From Alcaligenaceae bacterium (GTDB taxonomy: Bacteria; Pseudomonadota; Gammaproteobacteria; Burkholderiales; Burkholderiaceae_B): a stretch of 64,000 nt of DNA. The number at the start of each line of letters is the position of its first letter. Position 1 is the stretch's first letter. The position numbers and the translations under genes are program-made. Shown here one piece after another: positions 17,718 to 63,881 of this stretch. The notes beneath the pieces are model-generated. The model did no database searches, was not told the origin of the DNA, and saw only the letters and a list, made by a program, of their open reading frames with translations. The stretch is taken from the NCBI GenBank assembly GCA_013416395.1, contig JACCEP010000005.1:124001-188000 (forward strand). Direction: 5' to 3'.

Positions 17718-20700
17718 ATGCGTCTTGCCATCGGGGCTTTGCTATCGTGTGTTTTGTATTTGCCTTCTGCATGGGGGGCACAAATTGTTCAGTTTTCCCC
17801 ACAGGGCACGGTTGCCAATATTGAGCGGGTCAGCCTTACTTTTGATAAAGATGTCATCGCATTCGGTGACAATCAGGTGGCGCCGCCGGTAAGTCTGACG
17901 TGCGATGACGCTGAAGCAGATGGCCACGGCCGCTGGACAGACTCTCGTCGTTGGTATTTTGCTTTTTCCAATACCCTAGGCCCAGGTGTACGGTGTACGG
18001 CACAGCTTAACCCAGCTTTTAACGCACTAAATAATGAAGCCGTTACCGGCAACACCCGCTTTAGTTTTCAGACGGGCGGGCCGTATGTAACCAGTACACG
18101 GCCGTATGGCAATCAGGTGGATGAAGATCAGGTGTTTGTGTTGCGTTTCAACGGAGAAGTTGATCCGCAAACGCTGGTGGCCAATTCGCGCTGTCTGGTC
18201 GAGGGTTTGGGTGAGGCCGTGCCCGTTCGGCTTATTACCGGCCAGGCGCGCACGGACATACTCGAAGCAACTTATTATTCTCGCGCTACTGCCGTTGATA
18301 CGCCTGCCATGCAACTGCTGCAATGCAAGCGCACGCTGCCCGCCGAAGCCGACGTGCAGTTGCAGGTCGGGCCAGGCGTTGCAACCCCGTCGCGCGGCCA
18401 GCAGGCAGGTGTGCCGACTCTGGAGCCCCAGACCTTCGACTACACCGTTCGTGAGGCTTTCAAGGCAAGCATGACGTGCATGCGCGAAAACTCCGGCCAG
18501 CCATGCAATCCCGTAACTTCCATAGACGTCAGGTTTTCGGCACCGATTACCCGCGCCGAGGCCAGCAAGATCCGCCTTAAAGTAGGCGATGCTGAGCGTT
18601 CACCGAAGCTCGATAGTGATGATGATGACAACAACGAGGACCAAGGGCGGGTATTGTCACGGGTTACTTTTGCAGGCCCCCTGCCAGAAAGCGAGGCACT
18701 GGTGCTCAATCTGCCTGAAGGCCTCACCGATGACGCAGGCCGCCCACTTACTAACGCCGATCAGTTTCCTTTGGCTTTCCGCACGGCCGAGTTTCCACCC
18801 TTGGTTAAATTTGCCGCCTCGCCATTCGGAATTATTGAGCGCTTTGCCAACGTAGCTCCAGGAGGCGATGAAGCGAGTGATCCGGCCAGCATGGCGGTTA
18901 CGCTGCGCAATGTTGAGGCTGAGCTGCTGACACGTGAATTGCGACAGTCGGCTGGCAAAGTGTCTGACTACACGGTAAAAGACGACAAAGAAGTGCTGCT
19001 GTGGTTGTCGCGTCTGAACAGGCTGGATGAAAACCATTGGTCTGCTTCCCAGTACAAAGCCATTATGGCTGGGCGCAAACCCAAGTCTGACGATGGCGAT
19101 CGTATTGACTCCCGCCAGGTTTCGGCACTGAGCGGGCGCGAGGGTGTGCGTACGCTGCAGCTTCCTGGCGCTGGTCAACAGGGGCCAAGGCCCTTCGAGG
19201 TAGTAGGTGTGCCGCTGGTAGAGCCTGGTTTCCATGTTCTTGAAATTGAATCCGCAAGGCTGGGGAAATCGCTGATTGAGTCCGGAAAGCCCATGTACGT
19301 GCGAACGTCGGCGCTGCTTACTAATCTTGGGGTGCATGTCAAGACGGGGCGTGATGACACACTTGTGTGGGTGACCACACTTGATGATGGCAAGGTTGTG
19401 CCTCAGGCATCGGTTGCAGTGCTCGATTGCAATGGCAAGGAGCTGGCGCGCGGTGAAACAGACGCAAACGGTATATGGCACCATCATGAGCCCTTGAGTG
19501 ACGACAACCGCTATTGTTCGGACACGGGGCTTAGCGGTCTTTACGTGTCGGCGCGCATTGATGCCAGTCATGCTCAGGCGCGTGGCCGTGCTGATTTTTC
19601 GTTCGCACTCACTAACTGGAATGACGGGATCGAGTCGTGGCGTTTCAATGTGCCGACCGACACTCGCGTCACCCCAACAAGGGTTGTGCACACGGTGTTC
19701 GACCGTACGCTGCTGCGAGCCGGTGAAACCGTATCCATGAAACATTTTGTACGCGACCAGACCCGCAATGGTTTGAGCGTGCCGCACGACGCGCTACCCA
19801 CCATGCTGATTATTGAGCATCAGGGTTCTGATCAGCGCTATGAAATTCCCGTTAAGTGGGATGAAACCCCAACCGGAGGGCTCTCTGCGACTAATCAATT
19901 TGCAATCCCCGAAACGGCCCGGCTAGGCGTGTATTCGGTCACACTAAAGGGCAAGAGGGATGACTATTGGTATGAGCCGGGCGAGTTCAGGGTTGAGGAA
20001 TTTAAACTGCCTTTACTGACTGGGCATGTGAAGCTGACAGGCCCTTCGGGTGAGGTGCCCCTTGTGGCGCCAGCTAACCTGACGGCAGACATACAGATTG
20101 CCTATGTAGCGGGAGGCTCGGCCGGCAAACTGCCCGTGACGCTTTCGGGAGTCGTGCGAGAACGCCATGTCAGCTTCAGTGAGTATGATGAATTTTCATT
20201 TGACGTGCCGGATGAGTCTGCGACAGACGAACGCGCCGAAGAGGATGAGGGCAATGAGGATGAGCAGGGCGATCAACAGAATCGCGCTGGTGCGCCAAAG
20301 CTGTTTCTTGATAAGCAAAAAGTGGTGCTGGACGGACAGGGCGGCGCACGGTTTCAGATTGACGCGTTGCCAACCATTACTCGACCCCAAGAGTTTTTGA
20401 CTGAAGCCAGTTTTTTTGACCCGAACGGTGAGCTTCAGACGCTGTCTCAGATGACGCCGGTATGGCCAGCTGCGGTGCAGGCAGGTATTAAAACCGAAAG
20501 TTGGCAACAAGCCGGTAAGCCTGCAAAGGTTGAGGTGCTGGCGCTTACGCTGACGGGCAAGCCACAGGCGGGGGTGGATATGTCGGTCAGTGCTGTGGCC
20601 CGCAAAACCTACTCGGTGCGCAAGCGCTTGGTGGGCGGTTTCTACAGTTATGACAATCACACCGAAACGACTGATTTAGGCGTGCAGTGTGACGGTAAGA

Positions 20701-23700
20701 CCGATGACAAGGGTAAGCTGGCTTGCGAAATAAACCTGACTGAGCCTGGTTCAATCCAGCTTGTGGCTACGGCCAAAGACGATCAGGGACGCGCTTCGCG
20801 TGCAGCACGAACGATATGGATTACCGGTGCAGGCGACCTGTGGTTTGGCGGCAGCAATGATGACCGTATCGATGTGATTCCGGCTCGCAAAGACTGGAAG
20901 CCGGGTGAAACGGCAGAGTTCCAGGTGCGTATGCCATATCGACACGCCACGGCCCTGGTGGCGGTCGAACGTGAAGGCGTACTGAAGACGCAGATCGTTG
21001 AGCTGAAAGGTTCAGATCCTACGATTCGCATTCCCATCGAGGCAGAGTGGGGCCCCAATGTGTATGTTTCTGTGCTGGCTTTGCGAGGGCGGGTGCGCGA
21101 GGTGCCCTGGCAGTCTTTCTTTAGCTGGGGGTGGCGTAACCCCGGGGTCTGGTATGACGCGTTCAAAACCAAGGGAGACACTTACTCGGCACCCACGGCG
21201 CTGATCGATCTGGCCAAGCCTTCGTTCAGGTTTGGTCTGGCTGAAATACGCGTGTCTGATGACCTGGACAAGCTTGACGTAAAAGTAAGTGCCAACCACG
21301 AAACTTACCAGGTGCGGGATAAAGCGCAAGTCACCATACAGGTGACTACGCCCGATGGTAAGCCTGCGTCTCACGGTACTGTGGCGTTTGCGGCGGTTGA
21401 TCAGGCGCTACTTGAGTTGGCCCCCAATACCAGCTGGAACTTGCTCGACGCCTTGCGCCAGTTGCACAGTTATGGGGTAGAAACCGCGACCGCCCAAATG
21501 CAGGTTGTGGGGCGTCGCCATTATGGACGCAAGGCGTTGCCGGCTGGCGGTGGGGGCGGAAAGAGCCCTACGCGCGAGTTGCTTGATACGCTGCTTGTGT
21601 GGAAGCCCTCGGTCGAACTTGATGCCGACGGCAAAGCCACGATTGAGGTGCCATTGAACGATGCCATTACGCGTTTCCAGTTGGTGGCTATTGCCGACTT
21701 TGGTGCAGAGCGTTTTGGTACGGGTTCGACACAAATCGTCAGCACTCAAGACCTGCAGATTATTCCAGGTTTGCCCGCGGTCGCACGCGAAGGTGATCGC
21801 TATCAGGCTATGTTGACCTTGCGCAATGCCACCCAGCATGACATGCAGGTGAGCGTGGGGGCCTCCTATAAAGGTAATGGGGTTGCGCCTGGCTCGTTGC
21901 CGACTCAAGAGATGGTGTTGGCGGCGGGTTCTGCAGGTGTAGCCGTGTGGGATATCCAAGCTCCGGAAAGCAACCTGTTTATTGACACCACATCGCTGGC
22001 CTGGACGTTTGAAGCACATGAAACGCGGGGTGACAAGCCTGCCGCTGATCGCCTCGCATTTACGCAGAAGCTGCTTCCTGCCGTACCTGTTCGTACGCGA
22101 CAGTCCACGTTGTTGTCTGTGGATGCGGCCAAGCCTGCGGTCAGGCTGGAGGTGTCGCCGCCAGCAGGCGCTCTGGTCAATGCTGATGGGGTGCCACGTG
22201 GTGGTCTGCAGGTGCATCTGCAATCCACGCTCGCGGGTGGCCTGCCTGGGGTCAAAGAGTGGTTTCAGGCTTACCCCTACACTTGCCTGGAGCAGGTGAG
22301 TTCACGCGCCATCGGGCTGATGGACACCACTACGTGGGCTGGCATTATGCGTCGGTTGCCGGATTACATGGATGCAGATGGGTTGGTTTCCTATTTTCCG
22401 GGGGCACGCTACGGCAATGAAGTACTTACCGCCTACCTGTTAGTGATCAGCCACGAGGCACAGGCACTGGGCATGCCATTCGAGATCCCGTCTGCACAGC
22501 GTAACCAAATGCTTGACGGTTTGCAGGCCTTTGCGCAAGGCAAGCTAAAGCGCGAGCGCTGGTCACCTACACGTGATCTGTATATGCGCAAGCTGACGGT
22601 TCTTGAGGCGTTGTCCCGCTATGACCGGTTTACGCCAAACATGCTGGACAGCATCGCCATTACGCCTGACCGCTGGCAGACCTCGGCCATTATTGACTGG
22701 CTAAGCTTGTTGCAGCGTGTGCAGAGCATTCCTCAGAGGCCACAGCGTATTGAACAGGTGGGGCATGTGCTGCGTGCACGCCTGGCAGCCAGTGGCACCA
22801 CGCTCACGTTTGCACAAGATAGCCTGAATGATTCCTGGTGGATGATGCAGGGCGGCGACGCTAACCTTGCGCGACTGATGATTGTGGCACTCGATGCCAA
22901 CCAATGGGATGACGACATGCCTCGTCTGGCGCAGGGCCTGCTTGGCTTGCAGCGTCGTGGCGCATGGCGCACAACCACGGCCAATCTTCTGGGTACGCTG
23001 GCCATTGAAAAGTTTGCGCGCAAGTTCGAGCGTGAGCCGGTGTCGGGAACGGTGCGAGTTGGTCTGGCATCGGGGTCGCTGCGCACCTTTGATTGGGATA
23101 CCGCCAAGGCCAACCAGGGCGTGCGCACATTTGATATGTTGCAGCCCTGGAGCAAAGCCAAATCAGACGCGCTCGCCATTATTCCTAATGGCGGGGGCAG
23201 CGCCTGGGCGACGGTACGCTCGCTTGCGGCCGTGCCGACGCTTAAACCTTTGGTATCGGGCTATGAGCTAACGCGCAGCATCAAGCCTGTTACACGTGCA
23301 GTGCCTGATGTATGGTCGCGTGGTGACGTGTATCGGGTGACATTAACGATACGTGCCGAGGCACCTATGACCTGGGTGGTGCTCAGTGATCCTATTCCAG
23401 CCGGAGCGATCGTGCTTGGCAGCGGGCTGGGGCGTGACTCATCCATTTCAACCATGGGTGAAAAAGGCAGCACGGGCTGGTTTGGCCCTAGCTTTATCGA
23501 GCGCAGCTTTGAGGCCTACCGTGCTTATTATGAATATTTGCCCAAGGGTACAACTACCATCGACTACACCGTGCGGCTAAATACGGCGGGCAGTTTCAAT
23601 TTACCGTCTACGCGCATTGAGGCGTTGTATCAACCTGACGTTTTTGGCGAGTTTCCGAACAAGGAAAACATGGTGGTCAAGCCTGCCGCAGAAGAGGGGC

Positions 23701-23768
23701 AAGCTGCGAACCAGCCAGAAAATGAGGACGGCAAGGTCAAACGTGCAGCCGGGGCAGGTGGAACCTAA
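17718..23768 (+). CDS. Bacterial alpha-2-macroglobulin family protein (2016 aa)
   Basis: A very large secreted protease trap. A signal peptide (about residues 1-21, ending SAWGA) directs export; no lipobox Cys follows it, unlike lipidated E. coli YfhM. Ig-like macroglobulin domains fill the first 1,200 residues, including the MG2 region FDRTLLRAGETVSMKHFVRD and, after residue 1,250, the A2M segment LLVWKPSVELDADGKATIEV. The thioester motif YTCLEQV holds Cys1523 and Gln1526, so covalent trapping is expected, followed by the alpha-helical thioester domain and the MG10-type C-terminus. It lies 3 bases before pbpC, the usual pairing. An acidic insert near residue 840 (DERAEEDEGNEDEQGD) and a charged tail are unusual. 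Confidence 0.93.
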   Translation: MRLAIGALLSCVLYLPSAWGAQIVQFSPQGTVANIERVSLTFDKDVIAFGDNQVAPPVSLTCDDAEADGHGRWTDSRRWYFAFSNTLGPGVRCTAQLNPAFNALNNEAVTGNTRFSFQTGGPYVTSTRPYGNQVDEDQVFVLRFNGEVDPQTLVANSRCLVEGLGEAVPVRLITGQARTDILEATYYSRATAVDTPAMQLLQCKRTLPAEADVQLQVGPGVATPSRGQQAGVPTLEPQTFDYTVREAFKASMTCMRENSGQPCNPVTSIDVRFSAPITRAEASKIRLKVGDAERSPKLDSDDDDNNEDQGRVLSRVTFAGPLPESEALVLNLPEGLTDDAGRPLTNADQFPLAFRTAEFPPLVKFAASPFGIIERFANVAPGGDEASDPASMAVTLRNVEAELLTRELRQSAGKVSDYTVKDDKEVLLWLSRLNRLDENHWSASQYKAIMAGRKPKSDDGDRIDSRQVSALSGREGVRTLQLPGAGQQGPRPFEVVGVPLVEPGFHVLEIESARLGKSLIESGKPMYVRTSALLTNLGVHVKTGRDDTLVWVTTLDDGKVVPQASVAVLDCNGKELARGETDANGIWHHHEPLSDDNRYCSDTGLSGLYVSARIDASHAQARGRADFSFALTNWNDGIESWRFNVPTDTRVTPTRVVHTVFDRTLLRAGETVSMKHFVRDQTRNGLSVPHDALPTMLIIEHQGSDQRYEIPVKWDETPTGGLSATNQFAIPETARLGVYSVTLKGKRDDYWYEPGEFRVEEFKLPLLTGHVKLTGPSGEVPLVAPANLTADIQIAYVAGGSAGKLPVTLSGVVRERHVSFSEYDEFSFDVPDESATDERAEEDEGNEDEQGDQQNRAGAPKLFLDKQKVVLDGQGGARFQIDALPTITRPQEFLTEASFFDPNGELQTLSQMTPVWPAAVQAGIKTESWQQAGKPAKVEVLALTLTGKPQAGVDMSVSAVARKTYSVRKRLVGGFYSYDNHTETTDLGVQCDGKTDDKGKLACEINLTEPGSIQLVATAKDDQGRASRAARTIWITGAGDLWFGGSNDDRIDVIPARKDWKPGETAEFQVRMPYRHATALVAVEREGVLKTQIVELKGSDPTIRIPIEAEWGPNVYVSVLALRGRVREVPWQSFFSWGWRNPGVWYDAFKTKGDTYSAPTALIDLAKPSFRFGLAEIRVSDDLDKLDVKVSANHETYQVRDKAQVTIQVTTPDGKPASHGTVAFAAVDQALLELAPNTSWNLLDALRQLHSYGVETATAQMQVVGRRHYGRKALPAGGGGGKSPTRELLDTLLVWKPSVELDADGKATIEVPLNDAITRFQLVAIADFGAERFGTGSTQIVSTQDLQIIPGLPAVAREGDRYQAMLTLRNATQHDMQVSVGASYKGNGVAPGSLPTQEMVLAAGSAGVAVWDIQAPESNLFIDTTSLAWTFEAHETRGDKPAADRLAFTQKLLPAVPVRTRQSTLLSVDAAKPAVRLEVSPPAGALVNADGVPRGGLQVHLQSTLAGGLPGVKEWFQAYPYTCLEQVSSRAIGLMDTTTWAGIMRRLPDYMDADGLVSYFPGARYGNEVLTAYLLVISHEAQALGMPFEIPSAQRNQMLDGLQAFAQGKLKRERWSPTRDLYMRKLTVLEALSRYDRFTPNMLDSIAITPDRWQTSAIIDWLSLLQRVQSIPQRPQRIEQVGHVLRARLAASGTTLTFAQDSLNDSWWMMQGGDANLARLMIVALDANQWDDDMPRLAQGLLGLQRRGAWRTTTANLLGTLAIEKFARKFEREPVSGTVRVGLASGSLRTFDWDTAKANQGVRTFDMLQPWSKAKSDALAIIPNGGGSAWATVRSLAAVPTLKPLVSGYELTRSIKPVTRAVPDVWSRGDVYRVTLTIRAEAPMTWVVLSDPIPAGAIVLGSGLGRDSSISTMGEKGSTGWFGPSFIERSFEAYRAYYEYLPKGTTTIDYTVRLNTAGSFNLPSTRIEALYQPDVFGEFPNKENMVVKPAAEEGQAANQPENEDGKVKRAAGAGGT

Positions 23769-23771
23769 GTC

Positions 23772-25958
23772 ATGAGTAAGGCCGTGGCAAACCTTGCTGT
23801 TAGAAGCTGTGTTGCGCTGGCACTGGCCATCGGCTGTGCCGGGCCGTCGCTTGCCGTGCCATCGTTCAAGCAGGTTAAGAGCGACTATGCTGCCTCTGAT
23901 GTGCTGGTGCAAGACCGGACAGGGCAACTGCTTGAACGGGTACGGCTTGATTTTTACGCAAGGCGTGGAGACTGGATTGCCCTGGATGATGTATCCGTCG
24001 CCCTGCAGCGTGCTGTGATCATGTCGGAAGACCGACGCTTTTATTCGCATGGCGGCGTTGATTGGCAGGCCATGGCTTCAGCAGCCTGGGACAACCTCAT
24101 TAACACGCAACGCCGCGGTGCGTCGACACTCACCATGCAGTTATTGGGGTTGATTGACCCTGCGTACAGTCGCGGGCCAGGTGGGCGCAGTGTCAGCGAC
24201 AAGATTGATCAGGCATTTGAGGCGCGTCGGCTGGAAGATGATTGGAGCAAACCCCAGATTCTGGAAGCCTATCTTAATTTGGTTGCATTTCGCGGTGAGC
24301 TCGAAGGTGTGGATGCGCTGTCGCACGTGCTTTTCCAGAAGGATCCCAGTGGGCTGAATATGCGCGAGGCTGCGCTGGCGGCTGTACTGTTGCGCGGCCC
24401 CAATGCCCCTGAGCCTGTTCTGGTGCGGCGCACCTGCGCGCTTCTGGGAGAAATGGGGCAGCCAGCCGAATGCACCGGTTTGCGCGATTTCGTCTATCTG
24501 GTTTTGCAGCGTAAGTCGGCGCCGTGGGCAGGTCGCCGCGGGTTGGCACCGCATTTTGCGCGGCTTGCTCTACAGGGGCTTGATAAGTCTGCGCTGAGGC
24601 CGGGTCAGGTCGTAAGTACATCGCTCAATGCAGAGCTTCAGCGTTTTGCGCTGCATTCGGTTGCGCTCAGGCTGCGCGAACTTGATATGGCAAATGTGCG
24701 TGATGCGGCTGTGGTCGTATTGGACAATAGTAGTGGTGAAGTGCTGGCCTATGTGGGCTCTTCGGGTGGGCTTTCGGGCGCCACATATGTTGACCATGCA
24801 AGATCGCGCCGCCAGGCGGGGTCAACCCTCAAGCCATTCTTGTATGCGCAGGGGTTGGAGCAGCAACGGCTTACGGCTGTGTCGTTGCTTGATGACGGGC
24901 CGCTCAATCTTTCTACTGGCAGCGGTCTTTATATTCCGCAAAACTATGATGAGCAGTTTTCAGGCTGGGTCAGCGTGCGTACGGCGTTGGCGTCGTCGCT
25001 GAATATTCCCGCTGTCAGAGTGTTGACCATGGTTACGCCGGATGCGTTTGCGCGTCTGCTGGTGCGGCTGGGCCTGCCGTTGGAGGAAACCGGTGACTTT
25101 TATGGCTACAGCCTGGCCCTGGGCAGTGCTGATGTAAGCCTGTTGACGCTTACCAATGCTTATCGTGCGCTGGCTAATTTGGGCACAGTATCCAAGTCAC
25201 GGTTGCTGCCGGTTGCCGAGGGAAGAGCAGACCAGGCACAAACCGTGATGGCGTCGGGTGCGGCCTGGATTGTGGGTGATATTCTTTCCGACCGGCAGGC
25301 GCGTGCGCGTACGTTTGGGCTCGACAGCCCATTGTCCACCCCCTTCTGGACGGCGGTTAAAACAGGCACCAGCAAAGATATGCGTGATAACTGGTGTATG
25401 GGTTGGTCTGATCGCTACACCGTGGGTGTCTGGGTCGGCAATAGCGGTGGTGCCAGTATGCGTGAGGTGTCGGGCGTCTCCGGGGCTGGCCCTATCTGGC
25501 ACGACATCATGACGTATCTGCACCGTGGGCAGGGCAGCCGTCAGCCAGCCATGCCCGCTTCTGTCAGTACCGGGCAGGTTAGCTTCGAGCAAGGCATTGA
25601 GCCGACACGTCAGGACGTGTTTCTGGGCGATACGCAAGTACAGCGGGTTGAGCTGGCACGCAGCCAATTGACGACCAACCAGGGCACACCACGTATTACG
25701 CAACCGGCTGATCAGGCTATTCTTGCGCTAGACCCGGACATTCCATGGAAACATCAGCGCGTCTGGTTGCACGCTGCCAACATTGCGGCGGGCATGGCTA
25801 AAAATGTATCGTGGCGTGTGGATGGCCACATCATCGGAAGTGGTGCCCGCATTGCCTGGGCGCCTGAACCAGGTAAGAAACGCATAGAGTTATTGGACGG
25901 ACAAGGCAGGGTGGTTGATACCGTTATGCTGGAGGTGCGTGATGTACGGATCCGTTGA
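23772..25958 (+). CDS. pbpC: Penicillin-binding protein 1C
   Basis: A 728-residue bifunctional peptidoglycan synthase. A short N-terminal hydrophobic segment anchors it. The glycosyltransferase-51 domain carries catalytic Glu86 in MSEDRRFYSHGG and the RRGASTLTMQL motif. The transpeptidase has Ser351 in AGSTLKPFLY (SxxK), the SLN triad in ASSLNIPAVR and Lys530 in VKTGTSKD. The last 90 residues form the PBP1C-specific C-terminal domain. Coupling to the macroglobulin gene upstream (3-base gap) is conserved across proteobacteria. It has been read as repairing the wall at places where proteases have breached the outer membrane and been trapped. Confidence 0.95.
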   Translation: MSKAVANLAVRSCVALALAIGCAGPSLAVPSFKQVKSDYAASDVLVQDRTGQLLERVRLDFYARRGDWIALDDVSVALQRAVIMSEDRRFYSHGGVDWQAMASAAWDNLINTQRRGASTLTMQLLGLIDPAYSRGPGGRSVSDKIDQAFEARRLEDDWSKPQILEAYLNLVAFRGELEGVDALSHVLFQKDPSGLNMREAALAAVLLRGPNAPEPVLVRRTCALLGEMGQPAECTGLRDFVYLVLQRKSAPWAGRRGLAPHFARLALQGLDKSALRPGQVVSTSLNAELQRFALHSVALRLRELDMANVRDAAVVVLDNSSGEVLAYVGSSGGLSGATYVDHARSRRQAGSTLKPFLYAQGLEQQRLTAVSLLDDGPLNLSTGSGLYIPQNYDEQFSGWVSVRTALASSLNIPAVRVLTMVTPDAFARLLVRLGLPLEETGDFYGYSLALGSADVSLLTLTNAYRALANLGTVSKSRLLPVAEGRADQAQTVMASGAAWIVGDILSDRQARARTFGLDSPLSTPFWTAVKTGTSKDMRDNWCMGWSDRYTVGVWVGNSGGASMREVSGVSGAGPIWHDIMTYLHRGQGSRQPAMPASVSTGQVSFEQGIEPTRQDVFLGDTQVQRVELARSQLTTNQGTPRITQPADQAILALDPDIPWKHQRVWLHAANIAAGMAKNVSWRVDGHIIGSGARIAWAPEPGKKRIELLDGQGRVVDTVMLEVRDVRIR

Positions 25959-26192: not shown

Positions 26193-26861
26193 ATGATGAC
26201 AGCTCGTACCTTGGCCCGTATTCTTGCGCCGATTAGTCTGGCCGCTCTGGCTGCCTGCCAGACGACCGGTCCCACACAGAAGCCAGCGCAGGGCCCATCT
26301 GCCGAAACAGCTTCACCAGCCGAGACCGCTCCCACCCAGCCTCAAGCACAGGCGCAACCTCAGGCGCAAGCCCAGGGTGCCGCTGTCGCTGTGTTCCTGG
26401 CAGATACCGCCGACCGCACAGGCTGGACGCCCGTTGAGGTTGATGCCGGCAAGCTTTATGTCAACCCGCAGCCCGTGCTTACGCGCGATGATCTTTCAGG
26501 AGTACAGGCGGGTTCTAGCAAAGATGGCACAGGTCTGCTGGCTCTCCAGCTAAATGCGTCTGGCAAAGCCAAAATTGCCGATGCCACCACCAAAAACCCC
26601 AACCTGCGGCTTGCGCTTGTTGTAGGGCGCACCATGCTTGCTGCTCCGGGCTACACAACGCCCGTCACCTCTGATCAATTAATTTTCGCGGTGGGTAGCG
26701 AGCAAAATGCCACAGCGGCTGCACGGGCAATTGCCGGTGTACCGCAAGATGGCACGGGCGACACACAGCAGCCGATGCAGCAGCAACAACAGCCTGCTCC
26801 ATCGGCAGCGCCAGCGCCCGTTCCAGCTCCAACTCAAATGCCGCAAGGCGCACCGCGTTAA
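26193..26861 (+). CDS. Lipoprotein with SecD P1-like domain and Gln/Pro-rich ends
   Basis: A 222-residue lipoprotein: signal peptide with lipobox LAACQTT (Cys22), then a Gln/Pro/Ala-rich linker. A folded domain (about residues 66-190) follows the pattern of the SecD periplasmic P1 head: VNPQPVLTRDDLSGVQAGSS, LALQLNASGKAKIADATTKN, LALVVGRTMLAAPGY and a closing NATAAARAIAG. The C-terminus is again low-complexity, with runs of Gln and Pro. SecD uses this domain in protein export; here it is alone, tethered to a membrane by lipid. GGGGAG precedes the first of two adjacent ATGs. Confidence 0.72.
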   Translation: MMTARTLARILAPISLAALAACQTTGPTQKPAQGPSAETASPAETAPTQPQAQAQPQAQAQGAAVAVFLADTADRTGWTPVEVDAGKLYVNPQPVLTRDDLSGVQAGSSKDGTGLLALQLNASGKAKIADATTKNPNLRLALVVGRTMLAAPGYTTPVTSDQLIFAVGSEQNATAAARAIAGVPQDGTGDTQQPMQQQQQPAPSAAPAPVPAPTQMPQGAPR

Positions 26862-27618: not shown

Positions 27619-27838
27619 CACCTTCTTTGCGCTGGCGTCCCGCCGGGCTGCAGGTGTTGGCTTTGGTCAGCGCAGCAAATTTTGACTGCGGCTGGCATCC
27701 TAAGCTTGGGGGTTTACCGCGTGGCGAGTCACCGCGCAGCGCACGTTCTATGCTGCGTATATGCGTGATGTGAAATGCTTGCTGTTGTATTTATAGAGAA
27801 ACCGCAGAAAACACTCGCAGAATATCGTGGGTGTTTAT

Positions 27839-27863
27839 AAAATATACGCTCTGCGTATATTTT
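27839..27863. promoter_or_regulatory. Perfect palindrome upstream of the HTH-ATCase gene
   Basis: Arms AAAATATACGC and GCGTATATTTT are perfect inverted repeats around TCT, ending 12 bases before the ATCase ATG at 27876. A further GCGTATAT half-site occurs at 27755-27762. Position and symmetry suggest an operator overlapping the promoter or leader. Since the gene itself encodes a helix-turn-helix, autoregulation is a natural hypothesis. Confidence 0.6.
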
Positions 27864-27875
27864 CAGGGTTTTGTC

Positions 27876-29171
27876 ATGACTGTCTCGCAACAGGTATTTC
27901 TACGCGACGCGATGCGCCGCCTTAATCTCACTCGTGATGTGTTCGCGGGGCGAATTGGTGTCAAGCGTCGTGCGCTAGACACTTGGTTGCTGCCTGAGGG
28001 GTCACAAGAATATCGCGCCATGCCTGAGGTCGTTTCACGCTTTGTAACTGAAATCGTCGAAAACGAAAGCTTGCTGCAAAAATATTCGCATAGCACCGCA
28101 CAGTCGGGGCCCTTGCGCAATCGTATTGCGTTCGAAGGCAAACACCAATTGCTGTCAGTGGATCAGTTTAGCCGTGAGTCGGTTGAAGACTTGTTTCGCA
28201 TCGCTGACCACATGCAGCCCATTGCACGCCGTCAAAAGATCTCGCGCGTACTTGAGGGTGCAGTGCTTGGTAACCTGTTTTTCGAGGCGAGTACACGCAC
28301 GCGGGTCAGTTTTGGCGCAGCATTTTGCCGTTTGGGTGGTTCAGTGTGCGACACCACGGGGTTTACGTTTTCATCCATGGCCAAAGGCGAGTCTATTTAC
28401 GACACCAGCCGTGTAATGAGCGGCTATGTTGATGCCATGGTAATACGGCACCCAGAGAAAGGCTCTGTGGCCGAATTTGCACGGGCGACCAATATCCCGG
28501 TGGTCAACGGGGGTGACGGCCCTGGTGAGCACCCCAGTCAGGCATTGCTTGATCTGTACACCATACTTACCGAATTCTCGCGGTTGGGCAAACTGTTGGA
28601 TGGTGCCCATATTGCGTTGGCAGGCGATCTTAAATACGGTCGCACGGTACATTCGCTCATTAAGCTATTGGCGCTTTATCGCGGCCTTAAATTTACCCTG
28701 ATTTCGCCAAAAGGGCTCGAAATGCCTGACTACATTGTCGAAGAGACAAGCACGCGGGGGCATGTCATCGAACAAACCCATTCGCTTGAAACAGGCCTGG
28801 TCGGCGCTGATGTCATTTATGCGACGAGGGTGCAGAAAGAACGATTTGCTGCCGAAGAGCTTGAAGGGTACACACCCGACTTCCAAATTAACAAAGCCAT
28901 TGTTGACAAATGTTGCGGGCCCGATGTCATTGTTATGCACCCATTGCCGCGTGATAGCCGCGAAGGGGCCAATGACCTTAGCGTTGATTTAAACCACGAC
29001 CCCAGGTTGGCCATATTCCGCCAAACTGATAATGGTATTCCGGTGCGCATGGCTATTTTTGCAGTGCTGCTGGGCGTTGAAGGGCTGGTGCAGCATTCTC
29101 TGCGTGACGTTACCTGGAGCCCCCCATCGCACATAGGGCCCGATGACAGTGTATTTCACGGTATGTACTAG
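27876..29171 (+). CDS. Aspartate carbamoyltransferase with N-terminal HTH-like extension
   Basis: A 431-residue protein, about 120 longer than ordinary PyrB. Residues 80-410 are the transferase: carbamoyl-phosphate motif FFEASTRTRVSF (S139-T-R-T142), SSMAKGESIYDTSRV, the HPSQALLDLYT box and VIVMHPLPRD. The enzyme makes carbamoyl-aspartate for pyrimidines. Residues 5-60 resemble a helix-turn-helix: LRDAMRRLNLTRDVFAGRIG, then VKRRALDTWLLPEGS. I chose the ATG at 27876 because the longer frame from 27831 would run through the palindrome. Such HTH-fused ATCases are, to my knowledge, found in beta/gammaproteobacteria. No regulatory-chain gene (pyrI) is nearby. Confidence 0.88.
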   Translation: MTVSQQVFLRDAMRRLNLTRDVFAGRIGVKRRALDTWLLPEGSQEYRAMPEVVSRFVTEIVENESLLQKYSHSTAQSGPLRNRIAFEGKHQLLSVDQFSRESVEDLFRIADHMQPIARRQKISRVLEGAVLGNLFFEASTRTRVSFGAAFCRLGGSVCDTTGFTFSSMAKGESIYDTSRVMSGYVDAMVIRHPEKGSVAEFARATNIPVVNGGDGPGEHPSQALLDLYTILTEFSRLGKLLDGAHIALAGDLKYGRTVHSLIKLLALYRGLKFTLISPKGLEMPDYIVEETSTRGHVIEQTHSLETGLVGADVIYATRVQKERFAAEELEGYTPDFQINKAIVDKCCGPDVIVMHPLPRDSREGANDLSVDLNHDPRLAIFRQTDNGIPVRMAIFAVLLGVEGLVQHSLRDVTWSPPSHIGPDDSVFHGMY

Positions 29172-29180
29172 CAGTACACG

Positions 29181-29216
29181 ACAAGCGGGCGCAGGGAAAT
29201 CACTGCGCCCGCTTGT
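29181..29216. terminator. Bidirectional terminator between ATCase and rdgC
   Basis: A perfect 14-bp stem, ACAAGCGGGCGCAG with CTGCGCCCGCTTGT, around GGAAATCA lies between two convergent genes. It is GC-rich and symmetrical, so it can serve both directions, though T-runs are short. Confidence 0.82.
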
Positions 29217-34724: not shown

Positions 34725-34749
34725 ATGGCGCCAGGTTATCTGGCGCCAT
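34725..34749 (+). terminator. Terminator-like hairpin in the recA leader
   Basis: ATGGCGCCAG and CTGGCGCCAT pair perfectly around GTTAT, and CTTTTG follows. It sits between the recA promoter and start codon, 36 bases before the ATG. It could attenuate transcription, protect the mRNA 5' end, or stop transcripts reading in from upstream. The sequence alone does not decide between these. Confidence 0.55.
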
Positions 34750-63422: not shown

Positions 63423-63881
63423 TCAGCCTTGAGCGGATTCGCTGTCTGACGGCCAGTCGCGAATATACGCCTTGAGCATGTTGTTTTCAAACTGCTGGGC
63501 AGATACGATGGCCTGTGCCATGTCATAAAATGACACGACGCCCATAAGCGTAGGGCCATCCATAACTGGCATATAGCGGGCATGCTTGTCGAGCATAAGC
63601 CGCTGCACCTCTTCAAAGCCTGTATTAGGCGAAACACTGACCGGTGCGTCATCCATAATGCTGCGAACGCTATGCGAGCCTGTATTGCCGTCGTTGGCAT
63701 GCAGATGGCGGATAAGTTCGCGAAAGGTAAGCATGCCAGCAAGCTGGCCGTGTTCCATAATGACCAGCGAACCGATATCTTGCTCGCTCATGGTTTGCAG
63801 CGCCTGAAGGATGGACGTGTCAGGCGTGGCGGTGTACAGCGTGTTGCCTTTCACGCGTAAAATTTCACTGACTCTCAGCAT
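63423..63881 (-). CDS. CBS-domain protein
   Basis: A 152-residue protein consisting of a CBS pair: TPDTSILQALQTMSEQDIGS with VIMEHGQLAGMLTFRELIRH, then SVSPNTGFEEVQRLMLDKHA and MPVMDGPTLMGVVSFYDMAQ. Such stand-alone pairs bind adenosine nucleotides and sense energy status; the partner is unknown. AGGAGG is 6 bases before the ATG. The upstream gene's frame overlaps its start. Confidence 0.9.
   Translation of the reverse strand: MLRVSEILRVKGNTLYTATPDTSILQALQTMSEQDIGSLVIMEHGQLAGMLTFRELIRHLHANDGNTGSHSVRSIMDDAPVSVSPNTGFEEVQRLMLDKHARYMPVMDGPTLMGVVSFYDMAQAIVSAQQFENNMLKAYIRDWPSDSESAQG

Follow-up and report, generated by a model that had tools for sequence, protein, structure and literature searches.

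A predicted helix-turn-helix head on an aspartate carbamoyltransferase and a conserved putative operator at the promoter of its own gene

An aspartate carbamoyltransferase (ATCase) gene from a Burkholderiales genome encodes an N-terminal head predicted to be a helix-turn-helix (HTH) domain, and a palindrome overlapping its promoter, here called O1, is conserved in nearly all examined relatives that have the head and missing from the examined ones that lack it. The best reading is that this HTH-ATCase is a biosynthetic ATCase that also serves its own promoter as a dedicated repressor, binding and repression being inferred; that it controls the promoter through O1, again with binding inferred, we hold to be about 85% probable. 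Computed here are the HTH fold, the conservation of the operator, its co-occurrence and co-absence with the head, its overlap with the promoter, the small number of other targets and the conservation of a second site. Two criteria were applied: a DNA-binding domain on the enzyme, which is met by prediction only, and a conserved putative operator at the enzyme's own promoter that tracks the head, which is met as far as sequence comparison can tell. The features lie as follows in the window, by which we mean the whole stretch of 64,000 nucleotides that was analysed.

27755..27762, no strand: auxiliary half-site GCGTATAT upstream of O1 (sequence match)
27814-27819, + strand: possible weak -35 element, CTCGCA (by eye)
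27836..27843, + strand: likely -10 region TATAAAAT, entering the left arm of O1 (-10-like hexamer; relatives)
27839..27863, no strand: O1, promoter-overlapping palindromic putative operator with 11-bp arms and a 3-nt centre (conservation; no binding data)
27876..29171, + strand: HTH-ATCase gene, whole (NF008853/PRK11891 match; sole ATCase gene found in the genome)
27876..28061, + strand: codons 1-62, predicted XRE/HTH_3-type DNA-binding domain (profiles of relatives, predicted structure)
28062..28145, + strand: codons 63-90, linker; location of O2 in relatives (low pLDDT at 65-76)
28082..28100, no strand: position of O2, an intragenic putative operator (CDS +206), degenerate in the window (10 of 18 letters, synonymous-null p 0.09)
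28146..29072, + strand: codons 91-399, aspartate carbamoyltransferase (motifs FFEASTRTR, HPSQ, RVQKER and HPLP present)
29181..29216, no strand: perfect 14-bp inverted repeat 3' of the stop codon, a possible terminator before the convergent rdgC (inverted-repeat search; no terminator scan)

The fusion is an already annotated family, hence not new: the product of 431 residues, with ATCase at residues 91-399, matches NCBIfam NF008853/PRK11891 at 827.6 bits (cut-off 560) over residues 1-430 of 431, N-terminus included. The four catalytic motifs listed above are conserved across 31 aligned sequences. ATCase activity of the window protein is inferred, its gene being the sole ATCase gene found in the genome, where the second carbamoyltransferase (L003) is an ornithine carbamoyltransferase. 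In 102 of the 106 family genomes above the cut-off (two of these headless), no further ATCase is found at E 1e-50, so that the enzyme is presumably biosynthetic there; at least two ATCases occur in 14 of 16 genomes hand-picked from a second sample. With the 14-bp inverted repeat and the convergent rdgC downstream, the gene looks monocistronic.

Elsewhere in the window we note: (i) frames at 17718-25958, which we take to resemble an alpha-2-macroglobulin-type protein and penicillin-binding protein 1C, a common pairing; (ii) a small protein at 26193-26861 whose tail is rich in Gln, Pro and Ala and which weakly matches a SecD segment (E 5e-5); and (iii) a perfect 10-bp inverted repeat at 34725-34749, just upstream of a recA-like frame.

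The first-pass annotation had claimed a perfect palindrome directly before the ATCase and a half-site further upstream, and both are there. The palindrome is the perfect 11-3-11 repeat AAAATATACGC-TCT-GCGTATATTTT, separated from the ATG (27876) by 12 bases (27864-27875), and the half-site precedes it by 79 nt. O1 is the sole match in the window at up to three mismatches (0 matches in 100 shuffles), and nowhere else in the 5.08 Mb genome does its exact sequence recur. At 7 distinct places the window contains a perfect inverted repeat (arms of at least 10 bp, loops up to 8); such repeats are thus not rare, the O1 palindrome alone is weak evidence, and conservation is what counts. Exact upstream half-sites occur in 14 of 94 loci including the window, 17 sites in all against 1.6 expected.

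The -10 assignment rests on position and recurrence. A -10-like hexamer occurs at that place in 116 of 126 loci, compared with 8 of 126 control windows, although it consists partly of operator letters; the consensus is TAaAATATaCGC for the -10 region and tAaAATATaCGC around O1. Against the assignment, a simple promoter scan chose a different pair, 27834-27861 (one found, against a mean of 0.3 in shuffles), and only 48/126 loci had a -35 that scored 9 of 12. A recurring GTTGTATTTTGTC-like block, seen by eye at 27781-27793 and in relatives some 55-70 bases ahead of the operator centre, occurs in many Alcaligenaceae-type genomes and is unexplained.

For conservation, upstream regions were scored against the operator consensus ATATACGCAnTGCGTATAT, a site being at least 13 of 18 letters within 120 bp of the start. 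The family sample comprised 151 genomes, and in 106 of them the PRK11891 cut-off was passed. Set 1 has 106 loci, namely 105 above the cut-off plus G014, with G093 excluded for a gene cut by a contig end; 103 of them bear the head. Set 2 comes from a scan of named genomes that gave at least 588 relatives, of which the best 80 were taken; they belong to Burkholderia, Paraburkholderia, Achromobacter, Bordetella, Pandoraea, Collimonas, Variovorax, Comamonas, Pseudomonas, Uliginosibacterium and others. It partly overlaps set 1 (11 of 62 upstreams are identical to set-1 upstreams), and one locus whose contig begins within the gene (L175) was left out of the count.

The first-pass annotation had proposed comparing the upstream DNA of relatives, and the comparison came out in its favour. 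Among head-bearing loci, the operator reaches 13 of 18 in 97 of 103 in set 1, covering 32 of 33 genera, and in 59 of 62 in set 2; at least 15 of 18 letters are matched in 94/103 set-1 loci, while shuffled upstreams reach 13 in 0.45% of cases and 15 in 0/3300. No operator was found before any of the 45 HTH-less ATCase genes examined; it was absent from all 3 headless relatives (L112, L113, L114), from all 17 Halomonas-type and other HTH-less homologues, and from all 25 ordinary pyrB genes (best score 11). A profile search of HTH-less loci detected no head remnant below E 0.2, with one match at E 0.2.

The three headless relatives are small-genome members of the same ATCase lineage, without head and without operator, and probably represent a natural co-loss. 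The six set-1 misses are five 0.8-Mb genomes of one genus (g8) and one metagenome-assembled genome (MAG); heads have diverged in the three g8 genomes that were aligned, so the missing operators mostly fit the reading. Low scores despite a head were given by P. gingeri (L170, 11), L182 (12) and a MAG (8-10) represented by L103 and L137, apparently the same contig (12141 bases each). Co-variation between recognition helix and operator was looked for by eye; it is not clean and is not claimed.

As to wider spread, a class-level draw of 274 genomes gave only the window's own above the cut-off, but the genome-contig scan found HTH-ATCase members in Pseudomonas and others. P. gingeri, P. asturiensis and P. 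viridiflava (L170, L171, L173) have the HTH-ATCase plus another ATCase. Two of these three have an operator-like site of at least 13, which suggests that gene and operator moved together.

The other half of the case is the head, for which the first-pass annotation had claimed an HTH, and structure prediction bears this out. The first ~62 residues of the ATCase are predicted to fold as an XRE-type HTH: AlphaFold places helices at 5-16, 20-27, 31-37 and 51-69 of residues 1-70 (mean pLDDT 85.0, pTM 0.65), and the full-length model has a mean pLDDT of 77.6 with low values at 65-76. Profile evidence comes from the relatives. The window N-terminus has no Pfam match at E up to 1, nor in a second search at E up to 5; of 33 N-termini in the alignment, 14 hit HTH_3 with an E no worse than 0.01 (best 8.8e-5) and 27 at E up to 5, the window's own sequence not being among them. 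T19, R20, G28, R32, L34, D35 and W37 are invariant in these 33, and the recognition helix is nearly invariant.

A Foldseek search of the PDB with residues 1-70 ranks structures of the autorepressor Aca1 at the top, followed by HigA, HipB, lambda repressor and others. The top two, both with Aca1 bound to palindromic DNA, have E 0.041 and 0.086 and TM 0.71 and 0.75. None of the Foldseek matches of the head falls under E 0.001, so kinship to any single repressor is not clear, though the fold is. No believable sequence relatives of the N-terminus were found in the PDB, and among the best 60 of 71 matched carbamoyltransferase chains all alignments start at query residue 84 or later. Across 81 family genomes a head profile matches ATCase genes only, except for one match at E=0.006; other proteins with the same HTH were sought in these genomes and none was convincing.

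Going beyond the first-pass annotation, a second operator-like site, O2, is present within the coding sequence in many relatives. The first was seen in G003 during a one-mismatch search. The region +150..+270 reaches at least 13/18 in 77 of 164 HTH-bearing loci, compared with 2/164 and 0/164 in two control regions, and 99 of the 111 intragenic sites at 12 or more lie exactly at +206. These counts exclude L182, whose gene is cut by a contig end; L120-L137, mostly of set-1 genera, are omitted from the O2 spacing, synonymous, half-site and -10/-35 counts.

The window genome itself has a weak O2 and an upstream half-site instead, while O2 is stronger in the environmental genera Castellaniella and Candidimonas. 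In general, extra half-sites outside O1 accompany 17 of 51 weak-O2 loci, compared with 7 of 95 strong-O2 loci (Fisher p 1e-4, ancestry uncorrected), a pattern suggesting a need for a pair of sites, whatever the position of the second one. O1-O2 spacing is 233-280 bp with no single helical phase, and strict helical phasing of the pair was not seen. Five loci (L162, L165, L166, L167 and L178, from Xenophilus, Paracidovorax, two Comamonas and a Burkholderiales MAG) are without an intragenic operator; upstream they carry a pair of neighbouring operator-like sites, 24-45 bp from each other.

Since O2 lies in codons, its apparent conservation could instead be protein constraint on the linker motif KYTQSV, an explanation that bears on O2 alone and that we find possible but doubtful. 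KYTQSV is conserved as protein in many genomes, and O2 falls below 12/18 in 51 of 146 loci. But the O2 codons exceed synonymous expectation: under codon resampling with the same choice of offset, per group, the observed mean is 12.0 and the null 9.9, and p<0.05 is reached in 80/146 loci with offsets treated alike and in 71/146 with a fixed offset, where about 7 are expected by chance. (Picking the best offset in the data only gave 85/146, a figure superseded by 80/146.) The palindrome is, moreover, kept despite residue changes, as in STQSVH, STQSVY, YTQRVY and STPSVH.

In the mechanism we propose, the head of one subunit would pair with that of another and bind the palindrome O1. Enzyme that has become abundant would occupy O1 over the -10 region and shut the promoter. 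As O1 runs over the -10, bound enzyme would block RNA polymerase, and negative feedback would set the ATCase level. Cooperative or bridged binding by an oligomer with multiple HTH domains may make use of a second site, either upstream or in the linker codons, and several heads per oligomer would favour such second-site binding. Binding, repression, cooperativity or bridging, and modulation by substrate or nucleotide are all inferred, and the lack of any binding or expression data counts against the reading. The autoregulation read from the fusion by the first-pass annotation is supported in so far as an HTH fold is predicted and the palindrome tracks the head; the ligand it suggested (carbamoyl phosphate or a nucleotide) and the sign of control remain inference.

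A more elaborate form, offered as speculation that we think unlikely to hold in full, is that the oligomer senses its own catalytic state: closure of the trimer, driven by substrate, would rearrange its several HTH domains, and the oligomer would bridge the promoter palindrome and the linker-codon palindrome. If true, a single gene would be enzyme, sensor, repressor and operator.

Could O1 be the operator of an unlinked regulator, with the HTH-like head serving only assembly or enzyme allostery? XRE-like folds can be structural, carbamoyltransferases often have partners, and no binding experiment speaks against it. But O1 goes with the HTH from genus to genus, as far as Pseudomonas, and loci without the head lack it; other genomic sites are few, and the recognition helix is nearly invariant; we give this explanation little chance.

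There is as little to recommend a reversal of sign or a wider reach, i.e. that the HTH-ATCase activates its own gene instead of repressing it, or acts on further genes. HTH proteins can activate, the sign is not readable from sequence, Burkholderia-type genomes have a second ATCase so that roles may differ there, and the window's own genome has 5 further places at three mismatches, compared with 2 for the control. The position of O1 over the -10 is, by contrast, typical of a repressor. In a 31-genome search at one mismatch, all 14 gene-carrying family genomes, the 0.8-Mb G007 not being counted among them, have a site before the gene, and the further sites in the 14 number 7 (one being the gene's own inner site), not above the 9 of the reversed control. 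A wider regulon was dropped, the further sites being near control level.

The 31-genome search gave one site in each of three other genomes. That in G429, from another family of the order, was matched blindly and directly precedes an HTH-bearing frame of 486 codons. The other two, in G011, a non-carrier, and in G428, which is 68% complete, are without a head match and count against the reading. A three-mismatch operator match at 63462-63482 of the window (G000:C41:187462) is probably chance.

Autoregulation through a DNA operator, the reading we prefer, also agrees with the pattern of variation among 94 sites, in which left TnTnCGC and right GCGnAnA vary little or not at all, the positions between them admit non-pairing letters, and letters that would break an RNA pair occur in 25 sites at pair 2 and in 38 at the innermost pair (28 of them T-T); symmetric invariants with broken pairs are better explained by a DNA-binding protein that is itself symmetric than by an RNA stem. 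A leader RNA hairpin acting in attenuation or translational control, perhaps protein-bound, is rejected as the main explanation and keeps hardly any credibility: the palindrome is near the start codon, the window copy would fold (-11.4 kcal/mol, z -2.0) and that of L046 folds strongly (z -5.0), but many sites break the pairing, L012 forms a short stem only (three sequences folded), overlap with the -10 means that part may not be transcribed, and there was no Rfam match at gathering threshold, nor did 27620-27900 contain a terminator-like site.

In textbooks, ATCase exemplifies metabolic feedback by allostery; a large Burkholderiales group seems to have shifted its control to transcription by means of a DNA-binding head. 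ATCase is a trimer, with no obvious fit to a two-fold operator, which counts against the reading; confirmation would make clear how an enzyme that is a trimer works with two-fold operators, and would provide an instance of an operator kept within protein-coding linker codons.

Among known systems, NF008853/PRK11891 resembles the window protein over its whole length including the N-terminus, and its family line gives the enzyme name only, without a stated DNA-binding role or operator. Among the papers listed by searches of the open-licence literature (PMC texts only), none is on a DNA-binding ATCase. What is new is the palindrome over the -10 that tracks the HTH, the finding of this HTH only on ATCase, and the second, intragenic copy. 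Aca1, HigA, HipB and lambda repressor have the folds closest to the head, some of them on palindromic or operator DNA according to their titles; Aca1 and other small XRE-type repressors have 10-25% identity to the head, but no enzyme is fused to them. Feedback on pyrimidine synthesis is also exerted by the E. coli PyrB-PyrI ATCase and in the PyrR-controlled pyr genes, through an allosteric subunit, attenuation or an RNA-binding regulator, and there the ATCase is not known to carry a DNA-binding domain.

According to a 2015 review (PMC4581275), Burkholderia has two ATCases, of which one is ~430 residues long and contains an HPLP motif. The review gives as unknown whether one of them is catabolic and leaves the role of the long form open. 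The operator makes that role directly testable.

The metabolic enzymes PutA and BirA bind DNA through different folds, ribbon-helix-helix and winged helix. Both double as transcriptional repressors, of the put and bio operons (PMC6978683). They are other enzymes with other folds, and in the HTH-ATCase the second operator may sit in the gene's own codons. PepA of E. coli is a hexameric trigger enzyme (a dimer of trimers) that represses carAB (PMC6245113). It wraps ~230 bp of DNA, which it contacts at two sites; catalysis is dispensable, and a canonical DNA-binding motif is lacking. PepA, like the HTH-ATCase, is an enzyme that represses a pyrimidine-pathway promoter, repression being inferred for the HTH-ATCase; PepA acts on carAB without a canonical motif, whereas the HTH-ATCase would act on its own gene through a fused HTH and a palindromic operator. 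By analogy, PepA may be taken as the nearest precedent for the two-site geometry.
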